Source: a virus
Length of the DNA stretch: 21,539 bases
Reading direction: 5' to 3' (one strand)
Virus record (IMG/VR): IMGVR_UViG_3300042691_011896
Location: 1-21,539 of that record
The notes beneath the pieces are model-generated. The model searched no databases and had not been told where the DNA came from. It saw only the letters and a list, made by a program, of their open reading frames with translations. Numbering within the stretch: position 1 is the stretch's first letter; the number at the start of each line of letters is the position of its first letter. Of the stretch, positions 2,432-20,413 are shown in pieces. Position numbers and translations under genes: made by a program.

Positions 2432-2950
2432 ATGCCCTGCGCATTAACACAAAATTATAGTTTAGTTTGTAAAGATTCAGCCGGTGGTATAACCGAAGTC
2501 TACTTTATTGAGTTAGCCAATGTAAGCGGAATTGTTTCTGCATCCGGTGTTGTTACCGGACTTACTAAGGCAAGCGGAAAGCATTTCTGGAAGTATGAAT
2601 TGCCAAAAGAGACCGGATCTTTCACTCACAATCCAACAGTATCAACTGAGAATGGCACTTTGTTTTTTGAACAAAATCTTACCATCGTAGTTAACAAGCT
2701 TTCAGCATCCATCAATACTGAACTGAAATTATTGGCTCAAAACATTCTGGTTGCAGTTGTTAAGGATAACAATAACAAGTATTGGATGCTTGGTAAAGAA
2801 AGAGGACTGGATATGTCAGGAAGTACAAGCGGAAGCGGAACTGCATTTGGAGATCGTTCAGGTTATAGCTTAGTGTTTGTAGGCAAAGAGCCTGACCAAC
2901 TTTACGAAGTGAATAGCACTGTGGCCAATGCTTTACAGACTGCCGGTTAA
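2432..2950 (+). CDS. Probable virion structural protein (tail-tube-like or capsid-associated)
   Basis: A 172-residue protein starting MPCALTQNYSLVCKDSAGG. This opening, a short Cys-containing strand followed by a K-D-S-x-G-G turn, is one I associate with a common structural protein of Bacteroidetes phages. The rest alternates beta-like segments and Ser/Gly-rich turns (residues 128-140 are SGSTSGSGT-like), with no membrane segment or catalytic motif. It sits alone between two intrinsic terminators, one after the capsid gene and one after itself. That suggests its own transcript level, as for an abundant virion protein. Tail tube is a guess from size and beta content; head decoration is equally possible. 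No tape-measure gene is found nearby, which argues against a long tail. Confidence 0.55.
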   Translation: MPCALTQNYSLVCKDSAGGITEVYFIELANVSGIVSASGVVTGLTKASGKHFWKYELPKETGSFTHNPTVSTENGTLFFEQNLTIVVNKLSASINTELKLLAQNILVAVVKDNNNKYWMLGKERGLDMSGSTSGSGTAFGDRSGYSLVFVGKEPDQLYEVNSTVANALQTAG

Positions 2951-2972
2951 GAATAGATGATTAATGGTTAAG

Positions 2973-3000
2973 CGCCTGCCTTAAATAGGCGGGCGTTTTT
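2973..3000 (+). terminator. Intrinsic terminator after 172-residue structural gene
   Basis: CGCCTGCC (2973-2980) pairs with GGCGGGCG (2988-2995), with one T-G wobble, across a 7-nt loop, then five T (2996-3000). It starts 22 bp after the stop codon. It is the second strong terminator within 600 bp. Confidence 0.85.
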
Positions 3001-13447: not shown

Positions 13448-14131
13448 CTAAAAGAGCCTCATCTGTGAAATAAATTCTTTGTATCTTTTTTCCCCATCAT
13501 TGAAATATTTACTATCAATTTCGCAACCAACAAAACGCAACTTGGCTTTATTTGCTGAAATCCTACTACTTGCACTTCCCAAATGGGTATCTAAAACCAA
13601 ATCGCCTTCCTTTGAAAATTCGCTAAAAATCCAATCATACAATTTAACTGGTTTTTGAGTTGGATGTATCTTGCCATTAGTGTCCTCCCATTTTGAAGCT
13701 GAACCGCACCAATGAATTTTCTTTATCCTCATTGGTTTGTCAAATGAAGTCCACGCCATTTCACCGTCCGCAAAGTCGCTTTCACCATTATTTTTATCCC
13801 AAACAATCCAGCATTTTGAAGGTGGCAACTGATAGTAATTACCACCCCACACAATTTGGTTTTTAGATACCCTAAATAGTTGCTCCCAATATTCAGCGGT
13901 AGGTATGGAATTATCCCAATCATTTTCACCTCTGTATATTTTACGTTTTCCATTGCCAAGTTGCATTTTGTTTGCTCCAATTCCGTATGGTGGGTCAACT
14001 ACCGCCAAATCAAAGAATTTATCTTCATATCGTTTCATTACCTCAATGCAATCTTCATTATAAACTTCCGAAAAGGGCTGCGTATAACAGTGGTTTTGCG
14101 TCATTGGGGCTTTTGTGCTATCTATAATCAT
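13448..14131 (-). CDS. DNA N6-adenine or N4-cytosine methyltransferase (cassette gene)
   Basis: A beta-class amino-methyltransferase transferring a methyl group from S-adenosylmethionine to DNA. From the TTG at 14161 (237 codons) the motifs are DPPY at 56-59 (catalytic), HPTQKP at 166-171 and the SAM-binding DTHLGSASS at 191-199, in the order IV then I. The SAM loop is D-T-H-L-G rather than the usual D-P-F-x-G, a form I have seen in phage enzymes. ATG 14131 is used here; ATG 14104 and TTG 14161 are alternatives, and upstream bases do not decide. It is convergent with the endolysin and framed by direct repeats of the endolysin end, so it was probably acquired as a unit. It likely protects phage DNA from host restriction. 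Confidence 0.9.
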   Translation of the reverse strand: MIIDSTKAPMTQNHCYTQPFSEVYNEDCIEVMKRYEDKFFDLAVVDPPYGIGANKMQLGNGKRKIYRGENDWDNSIPTAEYWEQLFRVSKNQIVWGGNYYQLPPSKCWIVWDKNNGESDFADGEMAWTSFDKPMRIKKIHWCGSASKWEDTNGKIHPTQKPVKLYDWIFSEFSKEGDLVLDTHLGSASSRISANKAKLRFVGCEIDSKYFNDGEKRYKEFISQMRLF

Positions 14132-14192
14132 TTGTTCTAAATTTAAAATTTGTACAATCAATCGGCTTTAGTGCTGGGAAACCCCCAACGAA

Positions 14193-15221: not shown

Positions 15222-16562
15222 TTAAAATCCTATTTCATCTCTTTGAATATCTGCAATGCTTTTAAATACCTGTATCTCATTTCTAAAATCCAGATCGCAA
15301 GTCATAAGCATCCCATTCCGCTGCTTCATTATCCTTACCCGTCTTTTCCCTTCAAAGCTTTTGTCATTTGATAGTTCAGCATCATTTGCACCCCAAAGCA
15401 TAAGGATAAGGTCCGCATCCTGCTCGATTGCACCAGACTCACGCAGCGCGGATATTGGCGGTGGTACATCCCATGTACTATTTTTCACCCCGTCACGGCT
15501 AAGTTGTGAAAGGGCAATAATCGGAATCTCTAGTTCCTGAGCAAGGTTTTTAAGTTCCCTGCTAATCGTAGCAATTTCCTGCTCCCGGTTAGATTTACTT
15601 TCACCGTGCATCAATTGCAGGTAGTCAATAACGATCAGGCCGATGTCATGCTTCTTTTTTAACCGGCGGGCCTTTGCTTTTAAGGATCGTAAATTTACGG
15701 CATTTGCATCGTCAAAGAATATATTGAACCGGCTGAGATTATTGGCAGATTCTGCCAGCTTTTTGTATTCAGCTTCCGTCAGGCTGCCGGTCTGTAATTT
15801 GCCCAAAATTATATCGGATTGCGCTGCAAGCATTCTAAGGGCTAAATAAGGCGCTTTCATTTCGAGTGACCATACACCTACCCCAGCACCATTGAGGGCC
15901 GCATTTCGCACCAAATTAAGCGCAAACGCGGTTTTGCCTACGGATGGGCGCGCTGCCACGATAATCAGGTCACCGGGTTGCCAGCCGCGGGTTGCATTGT
16001 CAAGGTCTGAAAATCCTGATTTTATGCCGGTAATAGAGCTGCCAGTAGCTTTCCATTTATCGATCTTTTGTAAAGTATTAACCAAAACGCTCGAAATGTG
16101 TATAGTATCGGCAGCATTGGCATTGGATAATGTCATAATCTGCTTTTCGGCAAGGTCGATCAATTCGAAGCAGTCGGTTTCAGGATCGAGAGCTTTGGCG
16201 GTTATTTCAGATGAAACGGATATTAGTTTTCTTAAAGTAAACTTTTCGTGTACGAGCCGGGCGTGGTTTACGATGTTTGCGGATGAAACGATGGCATTGG
16301 TAAGCTTTACAAGTTCGTAAGGGCCGCCGATTTCATCGAGGTGCCCGGCCTGTTTCAGTTCTTCGGTAACTGTCACAAGGTCAATAGGTTGATGTTTCTT
16401 TTGCAGGTTAAGGATGGATGTGAATATCTTTTGATGAGCAGTTACATAAAAGCTATCCGGGGTTAGTAGGTCGGTCACTTTGTCGATAGCATTTGACTCG
16501 ATCAGTATAGCTCCAAGTATTGCAATTTCGGCATCCTTTGCTTGTGGCTGTAGTCCTTTCAT
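15222..16562 (-). CDS. dnaB: Replicative DNA helicase, DnaB type
   Basis: 446 residues, full length for DnaB. The N-terminal helical domain (1-105) starts with the family's P-Q-A-K-D-A-E-I-A-I-L-G. The RecA-like motor has Walker A at 204-211 (ARPSVGKT), the catalytic glutamate in SLEM (E234), Walker B LIVIDYLQL at 309-317, the LSQLSR motif near 351-356 and ALRESGAIEQDAD at 372-384. It is a hexamer that unwinds DNA at the phage fork. The start overlaps the C5 methyltransferase end by four bases (16559-16562), suggesting one operon. It lies in the - strand replication block with the DnaA-like and DUF1376 proteins. No intein or break. Confidence 0.97.
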   Translation of the reverse strand: MKGLQPQAKDAEIAILGAILIESNAIDKVTDLLTPDSFYVTAHQKIFTSILNLQKKHQPIDLVTVTEELKQAGHLDEIGGPYELVKLTNAIVSSANIVNHARLVHEKFTLRKLISVSSEITAKALDPETDCFELIDLAEKQIMTLSNANAADTIHISSVLVNTLQKIDKWKATGSSITGIKSGFSDLDNATRGWQPGDLIIVAARPSVGKTAFALNLVRNAALNGAGVGVWSLEMKAPYLALRMLAAQSDIILGKLQTGSLTEAEYKKLAESANNLSRFNIFFDDANAVNLRSLKAKARRLKKKHDIGLIVIDYLQLMHGESKSNREQEIATISRELKNLAQELEIPIIALSQLSRDGVKNSTWDVPPPISALRESGAIEQDADLILMLWGANDAELSNDKSFEGKRRVRIMKQRNGMLMTCDLDFRNEIQVFKSIADIQRDEIGF

Positions 16563-17530
16563 GGTTTTAGGTTTTGGGTTTCAAAGGTATGTATTGCTTT
16601 GAATATTTGGTAAACTACTTGGGGAACGACTGCGTTACCTCCTGCTTTGATGGATTCGTTTCGCCATTTAGGAAAGGTAATAGAGTCCAGTCGGTCGGAA
16701 AACCCATCATCTCCATTACAAACTGGGGAGACAGTTGGGAAGTTTTGCCAGTTGGATTTTGATCCATTGCCCATTGTCTCAAAGGATACTCCAAGTTCAC
16801 TCCTTTCTCCATTTGATATTCTTTCCTCTTTTGATATTTGTCCGGATATTCCGCATTGTTGGCGTCTCTCATTGCTGGAGTTGGTAGCATTTTCATTACA
16901 ATGTATTCCATCAACTGACCTTGCTTTCTGTTTCTGTCTAATCTGTTCAAAAGAGTTTCTGTTGCTTCTATTGTTTGGCTTGAAGTTGCTGGACTGGTCG
17001 TTACAGTTGGCAATAAACCAAATTCTATCCCTTCGGTGCGGAGCGTTGACGGCACAAGCTGGAAGTAAAAACGGGAGCACTTCGTAGCCATTAGCTTCCA
17101 AGTCAGCTTGCACTTCGTCGAATACCATCCCTCCATTCCAATTAGTAAGGCCGCGAACGTTTTCGCCCACAATCCAACGCGGGGAAACCTCTCGAATGCA
17201 TCTAAGCATTTCCGGCCAGAGATGTCTCTCATCATCTTTGCCGAGGCGTTTTCCTGCGGATGAATATGGTTGGCATAGTTATGGGAAGCCACCCGTGAGG
17301 ATGATGTCATCATTCCTCCAGTGGCTTCCGAATCGTTTTGAAAGTTCAAAATTAATTGTGTCATAATTTAGAGTATGTATATCTCTGTGGTGATAGGCAT
17401 CTGGCCAATAATATTCTAAAATCTTATTTCCAAATTCATTTATTTCGCATGAGACAATATTTTTCCATCCCATCCATTGCGAAGCAAGATCAAAGCCCCC
17501 AATCCCACTAAATAAACTTATATGGAGCAT
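16559..17530 (-). pseudogene. C5-cytosine DNA methyltransferase, interrupted by in-frame stop at motif IV
   Basis: Read through, about 322 residues of a cytosine-C5 methyltransferase. Motif I is FSGIGG (residues 7-12). Motif IV should be GGFP-CQ, but a TAA at 17279-17281 plus a CTA codon separate P83 from the catalytic C-Q. The same frame then continues unbroken with AGKRLGKDDERHLWPEM, ENVRGL (motif VI), RRDRIWFIA (motif VIII) and GGNAVVPQVVYQIFKAI (motif X). Compared with a normal gene there are six extra bases (TAACTA), which keep frame. As written the enzyme cannot be made whole unless the TAA is read through. The downstream ATG at 17209 would give a product lacking the catalytic Cys. The upstream end overlaps the HNH gene by 13 bp. 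A recent mutation is likelier than a sequencing fault, given six bases. Confidence 0.85.
16615..17364 (-). CDS. Overlapping ORF inside C5 methyltransferase, conserved-looking
   Basis: 249 codons, in a different frame from the methyltransferase and wholly within it. It is not random-looking: it has LLIGMEGWYSTKCKLTWKLM, FYFQLVPSTLRTEGIEFG, two LLPT/MLPTP motifs (MLPTPAMRDAN), and SPQFVMEMMGFPTDWTLLPF near the end. From memory, the K-L-T-W-K, L-L-P-T-P and L-x-P-x-F-V-x-x-M-G-F-P-x-x-W-T series is a familiar set in proteins encoded with phage C5 methyltransferases, where it is sometimes within the methyltransferase chain. Here one stretch of DNA encodes this series in one frame and motifs VI-X in the other. 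Unlike the other frame, it has no internal stop. Function unknown; target recognition or an accessory subunit is a guess. ATG 17364 is the first start. Confidence 0.6.
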   Translation of the reverse strand: MTQLILNFQNDSEATGGMMTSSSRVASHNYANHIHPQENASAKMMRDISGRKCLDAFERFPRVGLWAKTFAALLIGMEGWYSTKCKLTWKLMATKCSRFYFQLVPSTLRTEGIEFGLLPTVTTSPATSSQTIEATETLLNRLDRNRKQGQLMEYIVMKMLPTPAMRDANNAEYPDKYQKRKEYQMEKGVNLEYPLRQWAMDQNPTGKTSQLSPQFVMEMMGFPTDWTLLPFLNGETNPSKQEVTQSFPK

Positions 17531-17990: not shown

Positions 17991-18656
17991 TTATTTGTGT
18001 AATTGTTCAAATCGTTCACGTTCCCTCTGCCATCTTTCCCGGTTAGCTTGTGCAAGCTTTTCATGTTCAGTAGGCTGTTTTTTATTTTCATCTTTAAACC
18101 ATACCATCCGCATTTTTTGCTTCCAGCTTACTACCGGGTTACCTTTACTATCTTTCCAGTCTCCATCATTGTAATAGTTCCATGCCTTATCTCCGTTCGT
18201 ATATCCATGCTCTTCAAAGAACTTAACAACTTCATCAATTGTTGGCGATATAAACTTTGGTTTTTTAGGTTTACCCTTATTATTTTTATCTTTATTTATA
18301 TCTTCATTTTCATTTTCATTTTCATTTTCCATATGTTCAACATATGTAGAAGATATGTTTTTCTTATGTTTGTTCAATTTATTAAGACGTCTGGATTCAG
18401 AATAGTTTGATCTTTTAATAGCTTCCTCTCTTAATCTAACATTATAAAATTTACCATCTTCAGTTTTTACAAACTTAGAAAATATATCATGATCATAAGT
18501 TTTACATATGAATAACATATCTTTTTCAGTAAGTTCAAATTTTTGATGCTGCAAACATAATAGACGAATATACCTACCTACCTGCTCATCAGTCATGGTT
18601 AGCGTACCTGTTAAAAAATCGCTTGTGTAAAATAAAAATGCGGGATCTTTTGCCAT
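17991..18656 (-). CDS. Replication protein, DUF1376-like N-terminus with phage C-terminal domain
   Basis: 221 residues. Residues 1-75 (FLFYTSDFLTGTLTMTDEQVGRYIRLLCLQH) match the DUF1376-type winged-helix found in phage replication initiators and helicase loaders. A low-complexity linker (residues 110-130, repeated N-E then K/N/G) joins it to a C-terminal domain at 138-182 (PTIDEVVKFFEEHGY, then NYYNDGDWKDSKGNPVVSWKQK), a domain seen in phage replisome organisers. The last 25 residues are Arg/Glu rich. It probably loads the DnaB helicase encoded further downstream in the same strand. Its start follows a structured leader and U-run at 18657-18763. Confidence 0.8.
   Translation of the reverse strand: MAKDPAFLFYTSDFLTGTLTMTDEQVGRYIRLLCLQHQKFELTEKDMLFICKTYDHDIFSKFVKTEDGKFYNVRLREEAIKRSNYSESRRLNKLNKHKKNISSTYVEHMENENENENEDINKDKNNKGKPKKPKFISPTIDEVVKFFEEHGYTNGDKAWNYYNDGDWKDSKGNPVVSWKQKMRMVWFKDENKKQPTEHEKLAQANRERWQRERERFEQLHK
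18305..18329. repeat. Hexanucleotide tandem repeat (CATTTT)4
   Basis: Four units of CATTTT plus C inside the replication protein gene; on the coding strand they give alternating Asn-Glu. Gain or loss of whole units keeps the frame and would change only linker length. Confidence 0.85.
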
Positions 18657-18763
18657 AAAAAACTAATGCCCTCCGGAATAAAGGAGGTCGCCGTCTCCAA
18701 TATCCCATTGGGCAATAAAATTTTTAAAATTGATGCGGCGACTCATCTTTTGCTAAATTAATA
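18657..18763 (-). promoter_or_regulatory. Structured leader RNA, copy 1, upstream of replication protein
   Basis: Lies between the nuclease stop and the replication protein ATG. A conserved 21-bp entry block (18743-18763, with a TAATTTAG promoter-like -7 box) leads to a 7-bp stem P1: GTCGCCG (18742-18736) with CGGCGAC (18693-18687). P1 encloses hairpin CCAAT/ATTGG (18711-18707 with 18701-18697). Next, CCTCC can pair with GGAGG (P3) and is followed by six U just before the ATG. The element recurs at 20310-20413 with compensated stem changes. P3 would hide the only Shine-Dalgarno-like GGAGG, or with the U-run act as an attenuator. A 27-codon ORF also fits here but has no counterpart in copy 2. 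Confidence 0.7.
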
Positions 18764-18770
18764 TTTTTTT

Positions 18771-19169
18771 TTAATATACAATCTTTTTGAATGAATTAAT
18801 TGGAAAAATAGTTCTCGGTTTTATACCATTTGTTTTATAAAATTCACCATTTAATAAATTGATGAAACTTTGAATATAAATACATTTATCTGACAAACAA
18901 TTTACTATTAAATATGGCTCAACATTTGTATCATTATAAAATTTCATTCTAAAATCAATCTGCCATTGAGGTAATCCATGTCCATCAAAAGGAGGAGATA
19001 AATATTTTTCTTGTGTTTTTATTTCTGCCAAGCACCATTTATTATTATAAAAAAATATCAAATCTGCTTGCATAAAATTAATACCTATATTTTTAAAATA
19101 CTCTCTTATTTTACTTTCGCCATCAAGACCTTTTTTTAAATTATCTTTTGTGTTTTCGAAAAAACTCAT
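18771..19169 (-). CDS. PD-(D/E)XK nuclease-like protein
   Basis: 132 residues. E18 in a helix (GESKIREYF), D36 in ADLIFFYNNKW, then E49-I-K51 (LAEIKTQ) give a D...E-x-K nuclease core. They are followed by PPFDGHGLPQWQ, a loop I know from phage nuclease proteins of this size. It probably cuts or processes DNA, for example recombination intermediates. It overlaps the start of the methyltransferase's last codons by four bases (19166-19169), so they are co-translated. The gene is very AT-rich, like the C-terminal half of the methyltransferase, and unlike the rest of the block. The nuclease family is inferred from the motif only. Confidence 0.65.
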   Translation of the reverse strand: MSFFENTKDNLKKGLDGESKIREYFKNIGINFMQADLIFFYNNKWCLAEIKTQEKYLSPPFDGHGLPQWQIDFRMKFYNDTNVEPYLIVNCLSDKCIYIQSFINLLNGEFYKTNGIKPRTIFPINSFKKIVY

Positions 19170-20305
19170 AATCTGCTTTTTATTAATTTATAATAATTGT
19201 TTTCTAATTCAATTCCTGTAGCCATTCTGTTTAAACTTTTTGCGGCTAAAAGAGTACTGCCTCCTCCGGCAAAAGGATCTAATATGCAGTCCTTTTCCTT
19301 AGTGCTTTTTTTAATTAAATATTGCAATAAATCTAATGGCTTTTCTGTTGGATGTATGTTTTTTAAAGGATCAACTCTATTAAATTCTAATATATCCCTA
19401 TCTCTAACACCATTTAATTCTTTAAATATTTTTTTATATCCAAAGTAAATAATATCATAAGATTTCCCATAGCTTTTTAAATCGCCCATTCCAATAACTT
19501 TTCTATCCCATATTAAAATATTTTTTAAAACAAGATAATTTTCTATTATTGGTTTTATTTGTTCTAAATAATCAATATTTCCAAATATATAAAAATGAGC
19601 ATCATCCTTTAGCAATGGTATAGATTTTAACAAAACATCATTTAAAACAGATATTGTATTATTTATATTGTCATTTGCAATTTTGTTTTTATCATTCCAT
19701 CCACTTTTAAAATCCATTCCATAAGGTGGATCGGTTAATAAAAGATCATATTTGTTTTTTTCTAAAGTTGGTAAAATATCAATACTATTACCATTTATTA
19801 TTATTTGATTTTCGTTTGTTGTTTCAATAATTTTATCAAATTCTGTTTTATTTGTTTCAAATTCATATTTTTTTGCAGCTGTTAACAATCTACTTGTTGT
19901 TAGCTCAATTCGTTTTTTACTTTCATCTTTTGCAACGGATATCTCACGTTCAAATATTTCTTCCGGTAGTGCGGCAATCTTTTGAAAGGTACTGCTTTCG
20001 TTGGCACTAATTCCGAAATCAGATAATTTTGTTTTAGGTGGAATACTATCTTGTGATTCCACTTTTTTCATTGGAGCATAACCAGCTTTACTCACCTCAC
20101 TTTCCTTCAATAGTTTCCCTAATATCCTTTGAGTTCTGATCTTTTGTTCAGCAATCATGTTTTGAAGTTCAGCATCTTTCTTTTCTGCCTTTGCCCAAAC
20201 TTCAATCGCTTTTACTTTGTTGAGATAGTTTATGCCTGTTTCAATACTTTTGATTTCGGCAAGTTGTTGTTTTGCGTTGTCTCGCAATAATAATACATCC
20301 GTCAT
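19166..20305 (-). CDS. DNA methyltransferase (N6-adenine/N4-cytosine) with helical N-terminal domain
   Basis: 379 residues from ATG 20305; ATG 20332 would lie inside the leader element. Residues 1-150 are a helical region (LAEIKSIETGINYLNKVKA, IRTQRILGKLLKE, LSDFGISANESSTFQKIAAL) that resembles the ParB-like, C-terminal type DNA-binding helices found in front of phage methyltransferases. The catalytic part has DPPY at 192-195, HPTEKP at 318-323 and DPFAGGGST at 343-351. It would methylate adenine or cytosine amino groups in DNA. The first part has normal base composition for the window; the catalytic part is very AT-rich. The gene looks like a chimera joined near residue 150. The structured leader precedes it. 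Confidence 0.88.
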   Translation of the reverse strand: MTDVLLLRDNAKQQLAEIKSIETGINYLNKVKAIEVWAKAEKKDAELQNMIAEQKIRTQRILGKLLKESEVSKAGYAPMKKVESQDSIPPKTKLSDFGISANESSTFQKIAALPEEIFEREISVAKDESKKRIELTTSRLLTAAKKYEFETNKTEFDKIIETTNENQIIINGNSIDILPTLEKNKYDLLLTDPPYGMDFKSGWNDKNKIANDNINNTISVLNDVLLKSIPLLKDDAHFYIFGNIDYLEQIKPIIENYLVLKNILIWDRKVIGMGDLKSYGKSYDIIYFGYKKIFKELNGVRDRDILEFNRVDPLKNIHPTEKPLDLLQYLIKKSTKEKDCILDPFAGGGSTLLAAKSLNRMATGIELENNYYKLIKSRL

Positions 20306-20309
20306 ATTT

Positions 20310-20413
20310 AAAAAATTTAGGCCATCCAGCATAAAGGAGCTAACGGACTCCTAAATGCCTTCAGGCCAATATGTTAAAATTGATGCCGTTAGTCATCTAT
20401 TGCTAAATTAATA
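20310..20413 (-). promoter_or_regulatory. Structured leader RNA, copy 2, upstream of methyltransferase
   Basis: Lies between the HTH-like gene and the methyltransferase ATG. The 21-bp entry block (20393-20413) differs from copy 1 by one base. P1 is CTAACGG (20392-20386) with CCGTTAG (20346-20340), again 7 bp, four of which differ from copy 1 on both sides. An inner hairpin CCTGAA/TTTAGG (20365-20360 with 20355-20350) corresponds to that in copy 1. CATCAATTTTA after the 5' strand, and GGAG/CTCC around the 3' strand, are kept. Six U (20315-20310) precede the start codon. It carries stops in the peptide frame of copy 1, so RNA structure rather than a peptide is what is kept. Confidence 0.7.

Follow-up and report, generated by a model that had tools for sequence, protein, structure and literature searches.

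In the rep attenuators of pT181- and pIP501-type plasmids, a structured leader carries an intrinsic-terminator hairpin between the promoter and the coding region, and kissing hairpins play a central part (PMC4878617, PMC8383071). The leader of the replication initiator gene repZ of ColIb-P9 (IncI-alpha) forms a pseudoknot, a long-range pairing that is used as a switch (PMC8383071). Two hairpins with kissing loops also make up the 5′ leader of the Guanidine-II riboswitch (PMC9300104), and T4-type phages have promoter early stem-loop (PeSL) cassettes, in which an early promoter and a terminator-type stem-loop stand at sites of module exchange (PMC4503421). In their way of working, the phage leaders reported here would come closest to the plasmid rep-gene attenuators and the repZ pseudoknot leader; in their placement they resemble PeSL cassettes.

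The window, that is, the whole stretch of DNA analyzed, is a virus record 21,539 bases long; its identified genes include those for a portal protein, a DnaB helicase and methyltransferases. Three DNA methyltransferase genes or fragments (two N6/N4, one C5) lie at 13448–14161, 16559–17209 and 19166–20305, all within 21.5 kb. An earlier note, made from this sequence, had reported two structured elements, and both are present on the minus strand: E1 (18747 down to 18657) and E2 (20397 down to 20306) are 5′ leaders that run from promoter to start codon. Downstream of E1 lies a replication-type gene (17991–18656, minus strand; phrog_15768) whose 221-residue product begins with MAKDPAFLFYTSDF and is 56% identical in its C-terminal part to the replication protein of the Flavobacterium phages elemo. 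E2 is followed by a DNA N6/N4 methyltransferase gene (19166–20305, minus strand; 379 residues; Pfam N6_N4_Mtase, 1.1e-28; phrog_67, 1.7e-53), and a gene for 132 residues that belong to no Pfam family (18771–19169, minus strand) fills the space between the methyltransferase gene and E1. The two genes at 18771–20305, between the two leaders, look like an inserted cassette and may be a modification/restriction pair.

Each leader is preceded on the minus strand by the same −7 promoter element, TAATTTAG, at 20403–20410 for E2 and at 18753–18760 for E1; as the sequence reads, the TAA within the E2 box doubles as the stop codon of the gene upstream. The −7 element of Bacteroidetes has the consensus TAnnTTTG with its G at −5 (PMC6847099), which places the predicted RNA starts at about 20398 (E2) and 18748 (E1), at the base of the first hairpin, H1. 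In all close relatives the box lies 4–5 nt upstream of H1, and the AUG follows at 88–92 nt from H1 in every member of the window subfamily, two divergent subfamilies included.

H1 of E1 (18732–18747, minus strand) consists of the stem GATG/CATC and the 8-nt loop AGTCGCCG, which holds the word GTCGCCG (18742–18736); in E2 (20382–20397, minus strand), the same stem closes the 8-nt loop ACTAACGG with the word CTAACGG (20392–20386). After a linker of 14–18 nt in window-type leaders comes H2, built of a G+C outer stem, two inner stems separated by internal loops, and an apical loop, and followed by a U-rich stretch and the ATG. In E1, H2 (18668–18713, minus strand) has the outer stem GCCC/GGGC, the inner stems GGGAT/ATTCC and GGAG/CTCC, and the apical-loop word CGGCGAC (18693–18687); the U-rich tail ATTAGTTTTTT (18657–18667, minus strand) stands immediately 5′ of the start codon. 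The corresponding parts of E2 are an H2 at 20320–20367 (minus strand) with the outer stem GGCC/GGCC, the inner stems GGCAT/ATGCT and GGAG/CTCC, and the apical-loop word CCGTTAG (20346–20340), and a tail, TAAATTTTTTAAAT (20306–20319, minus strand), that extends from H2 to the methyltransferase start codon. The H1 loop word is complementary to the H2 apical-loop word in both leaders (GTCGCCG with CGGCGAC; CTAACGG with CCGTTAG), and the words of the two leaders differ and are not interchangeable. When the minus strand of each leader is folded alone, both kissing loops stay open, with z scores of −2.25 and −2.75 relative to shuffled sequences. Four of the seven pairs differ between E1 and E2, with both partners changed every time, exactly as the earlier note had listed. 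What it took for a closing stem, P1, is instead a loop–loop kissing helix between two separate hairpins. The flanks it saw to be shared are indeed shared and can now be resolved: the entry block comprises the −7 box, the predicted start and the 5′ strand of the 4-bp GATG/CATC stem, and the second flank, CATCAATTTTA, comprises the 3′ strand of the GATG/CATC stem and the linker.

Viral contigs were scanned with patterns that left the kissing pairs unspecified, which provided leaders from about 30 contigs; a kissing filter had served to choose the first 16 leaders. A covariance model, R1, built without the kissing pairs to avoid circularity, was used to collect members and gave 23 distinct leaders. 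Across these, the kissing helix is paired in 161 of 161 cells with no G–U pair, and six of its seven positions show two-sided change. The structure as a whole is paired in 97.4% of cells as against 81% after shuffling, with 71 two-sided changes against 15.6 and a covariation score of 0.403 against 0.118 (at most 0.095 in controls with slid pairing). These whole-structure measures exceed all 500 shuffles and all slid controls, with the exception of the pair-type count, which 11 of the 500 shuffles reached. The stems covary as well: GATG/CATC becomes GTTG/CAAC, C–G becomes G–C in the outer stem, and A–U becomes C–G in the upper stem; G–U pairs are frequent in the stems. L201 and L235, which lie outside the R1 set and were absent from a further model, R2, match R2 at 29 bits, with an H1 stem TGTTAT/ATAACA, the H1 loop GTACGAG and the H2 loop CTCGTAC. 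The structure of the leader, shown by covariation, is thus close to certain. The earlier note had argued for selection on structure and had named further copies with compensated pairs as its support; such copies exist. Of its two options, RNA or hairpin DNA, frequent G–U pairs in the stems and the fixed orientation from promoter to gene favor RNA and speak against hairpin DNA. Two copies in one sequence are seen only in the window and in L003, whose sequence is the same as that of the window; the contigs are mostly fragments, which leaves the copy number per genome uncertain. At 2585 (plus strand) in L383, we observe a longer variant with a 14-bp H1, a 25-nt linker and the kissing word GTGGAAC, before a gene for 90 residues.

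Like the pT181 type, all the phage leaders carry a putative terminator, formed by the terminator-like H2 and the U-rich tail that separates it from the start codon. The kissing partner in pT181 and pIP501 is an antisense RNA from the opposite strand, whereas the phage leader kisses within one RNA. We found no antisense promoter: boxes of the form TAHHTTTG on the antisense strand number 0 in the leaders (1.4 expected) and 2 in the first 150 nt of the genes (3.4 expected). Nor did we find an antiterminator that competes with the terminator stem, the long-range covarying pairing of the phage leaders being one between loops only. The phage leaders are therefore not plasmid-type rep-gene attenuators. 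With repZ they share a long-range pairing inside the leader of a replication gene; the repZ pairing acts on translation and is countered by the antisense Inc RNA, whereas the phage leaders have two complete hairpins, a 7-bp loop–loop pairing and a U-run. The kissing of Guanidine-II is very short and joins conserved loops around the ligand, in contrast to the 7-bp helix of almost free sequence in the phage leader, whose loops are variable and lack the conserved mini-ykkC kissing sequence; the Rfam scans gave no match. The put antitermination RNAs of HK022 are structured RNAs with which early phage transcripts begin, as the phage leaders would be; they consist of two adjacent hairpins without kissing and act on the E. 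coli polymerase. PeSL cassettes, reportedly described by Arbiol in 2010 and Comeau in 2014, likewise combine a promoter and a terminator-like stem-loop at junctions of exchanged modules. They belong to T4-type phages of other hosts, and the account of them in PMC4503421 mentions no loop–loop helix.

The phage leader is a structured leader RNA that is unusual in conserving structure while lacking sequence conservation, and it falls in no Rfam family. Against Rfam 15, the window gave no match at the gathering threshold and nothing credible at a relaxed one, in line with the earlier note, which had recognized no known family; a scan of 12 further loci also returned none. BLASTN of the leaders against isolated phages produced chance or upstream-region matches only; it was the replication protein and the architecture scan described below that led to the members in isolated phages. 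A match in Tenacibaculum phage PTm1 was rejected, being inside a coding sequence with no leader. When 84,980 genomes of bacteria and archaea were scanned for the pattern, with no positive control, 61 matches resulted, none of which has the architecture by the kissing check. Model R2, likewise run without a positive control, found no match in 300 genomes of Flavobacteriaceae or in 4 further ones. No convincing member turned up in phages 6H and crAss001 (first 50 kb), and there is no leader among the matches listed for phage B124-14. An alternative terminator hairpin, CCTCC/GGAGG, is present in E1 and was rejected on inspection, several relatives not having kept it.

To find members independently of the leader sequence, we chose 80 orthologs of the window replication gene by protein and inspected their upstream regions, which provides an unbiased test. 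Ten leader places with a strong model match emerged, together with about 25 weaker ones. At many of the weaker ones, an independent architecture scan located a kissing leader whose sequence is unrelated. That scan relied on the −7 box, two hairpins, loop complementarity and position only; it yields no false-positive rate for single weak cases. A second version additionally required a G+C stem followed by T, with dinucleotide-shuffled sequence as control, and returned 90 places against 8 in shuffled sequence at a score of at least 24, and 49 against 0 at a score of at least 27. An open reading frame begins 9–27 nt past H2 at the true places and is missing at the false ones. Many orthologs have no leader directly upstream, the gene being inside an operon or preceded by a different structured leader, which argues that the element belongs to promoters and not to the gene family. 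A second, different leader lies upstream of the KDPAFLFY gene, an ortholog of the same replication gene, in L366–L373 and L389 (for example L366, about 2920–3000, plus strand). By eye, its outer stem (GCCTCG/CGAGGC, GCTCCG/CGGAGC, GCCCCG/CGGGGC), middle stem (CTGTG/CACAG, CAGCG/CGCTG) and inner stem (CATCC/GGATG) change together; AGTA, GTTCCAC and GCGAAA are conserved, a T-run stands before the ATG, and Rfam gave no match.

Among cultured phages, the architecture scan located a leader before the replication operon of Flavobacterium phage elemoC 14-1A, with TGAGAGC pairing to GCTCTCA, and one in Flavobacterium phage 11b, with CGGGCAGG pairing to CCTGCCCG. The region is present in 68 elemo records, 59 of which share one allele while 9 have diverged. 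The kissing pair is GTGAGATG/CATCTCAC in elemoA 13-1A and GTGGAGG/CCTCCAC in elemoE 6-9C; altogether, three alleles occur among the elemo phages of one host, and the kissing pair of each is compensated in its own way. Between elemoA 13-1A and 7-9A, the downstream genes are 92–100% identical, the linker is identical, and the base of H2 and the tail are conserved, whereas the kissing hairpins differ in a compensated manner. In the elemo phages L446–L448, the tRNA gene between the upstream module and the leader varies (tRNA-Ala or tRNA-Met); identity drops locally to 39–62% there, with flanks mostly above 85%.

The genes that follow the leader encode small proteins, endonucleases of the HNH and GIY-YIG kinds, and replication initiators that fall into several unrelated types; most are replication genes. 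In L057, L109, L133, L237 and L284, the first gene after the leader encodes a member of a family of small proteins of 60–75 residues with a C-terminal F-I-N-D motif; the one tested, from L237, has no Pfam match. Junctions between gene modules coincide with the leader. Up to the promoter, elemoA 7-9A and elemoE 6-9C are mostly 85–100% identical, one tRNA region excepted, and from the leader on they are unrelated (26–54%). L109 and L122 agree at 93% upstream and 100% in the leader, with 3% in the gene; window E2 and L135 share 95% upstream and 5% in the gene; and window E1 and L119 share 96% in the gene and 4% upstream. On the simplest reading of the window, the methyltransferase cassette would be an insertion that separated the replication gene from an upstream gene, the two being neighbors in relatives. 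The idea that the leaders coordinate the replication protein with the methyltransferase in particular finds no support: the same leader precedes unrelated genes in relatives, and the kissing sequences of the two window copies cannot substitute for each other.

At roughly even probability, we read E1 and E2 as members of a large, undescribed class of cis-acting, attenuator-type 5′ leader RNAs for early genes of Bacteroidetes phages. The attenuation mechanism, which we infer, would run as follows. Transcription would start at, or just before, the base of H1; after a linker of about 10–29 nt, the longer H2 forms. The H1 loop pairs with the H2 apical loop through 6–10 Watson–Crick pairs, usually 7, and could capture it before the 3′ arm of H2 exists. 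H2 resembles an intrinsic terminator, with a G+C-rich base and a U-run and with the start codon about 9–27 nt later, and H1, by clamping the H2 loop while the polymerase is still transcribing, would set read-through into the early, mostly replication, gene. Promoter and leader together may form a portable expression cassette and a joint for the exchange of gene modules, because the leader works without gene-specific sequence.

A U-run follows H2 throughout the members. T makes up 69% of positions −12 to −1, compared with 29.5% for the remaining genes on these contigs, and an A at −3 occurs in 2 of 24 cases as against 50%, which suggests that the U-tract persists in place of the A-rich context usual at start codons. 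The U-run of divergent members directly follows the G+C stem while the AUG can be 19–27 nt further, so that it is H2, rather than the AUG, to which the U-run belongs. The window subfamily weakens the attenuator reading on this point, its U-run beginning 4–6 nt past the G+C-rich base. By the usual rules, a U-run 4–6 nt beyond the stem makes a poor terminator. The only match of a terminator scan in this subfamily was an alternative hairpin that several relatives do not keep. In addition, the structure shows no evident on/off switch, since there is no competition between the kissing pairs and the stem of H2.

The main rival, that the leader chiefly controls translation or message stability, we consider possible yet clearly less probable than attenuation, and such a role would fit most of the leader anatomy. 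A 5′-terminal hairpin locked to a second hairpin would shield the 5′ end, in keeping with an H1 at predicted +1/+2 in the window subfamily and the constant 88–92 nt between H1 and AUG. The rigid structure would hold a U-rich tract of the S1-binding type just 5′ of the AUG, and kissing may prevent contacts between the linker and the start region; when folded with open loops, the U-run is mostly free, though several members show pairing of the linker with the U-run or the AUG. Bacteroidetes, moreover, initiate translation without a Shine–Dalgarno sequence and tune it by structure near the AUG (PMC6847099), which counts for this rival. Against it, the AUG lies 19–27 nt past the U-run in elemo, 11b and the L399 group, where the U-run tracks H2, and the tail lacks the A at −3 that favors initiation.

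A less probable view, which we regard as doubtful, is that a short terminated leader RNA acts in trans, pairing by its loops with other copies and regulating replication genes between co-infecting phages, with loop sequences as compatibility groups like those of plasmid copy-number RNAs. Leaders that mostly precede replication genes, kissing parts that differ between close relatives with identical flanks and linker, as in the three elemo alleles on one host, and the mismatched loops of the two window copies would all agree with this. Yet pairing in trans should lose out to kissing within the molecule, cis pairing alone accounts for the covariation because the two loops of each RNA match one another, and the missing antisense promoters weigh against it too. 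Very improbable is an action as DNA, in which a recombination or replication hairpin promotes module exchange and the RNA structure is incidental: the module junctions do coincide with the leader, but they would be expected at any conserved intergenic cassette, the common G–U pairs of the stems would be mismatches in DNA, and the element always has one orientation with a −7 box upstream and a start codon downstream. A conserved leader peptide from the ATG in GATG, with covariation as a by-product of coding, is refuted as a general explanation: a similar peptide of 25–29 residues can be read in about 13 of 21 close members, but both window copies, along with several other close members whose RNA structure is intact, have a frameshift or a stop in that frame, the ATG is missing at the site in divergent subfamilies, and coding cannot yield exact complementarity of two separated 7-mers.

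Returning to the attenuator reading, we know of no example of an attenuator that clamps a terminator loop in cis. If the leaders are attenuators, they would work in this way and offer a ready source of mutually independent parts. We suggest only tentatively, and think it rather less probable than the attenuator assignment itself, that they represent a new class of RNA regulator with a conserved three-dimensional plan and almost free sequence, in which a terminator hairpin is controlled in cis by kissing from the loop of a 5′ hairpin. Its loops would diversify between co-circulating phages, possibly under selection for orthogonality, as compatibility groups of replication operons, and it would serve as the exchange joint of early modules. 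The strength of the covariation means that such structures can be found by architecture in raw phage sequence where sequence searches fail. The presence of the leader in cultured phages (elemo on Flavobacterium sp. BAL314; 11b) makes its function directly testable. The leaders constitute a natural, abundant set of orthogonal kissing loops, in a phylum, Bacteroidetes, and a virosphere whose regulatory RNAs are little known.
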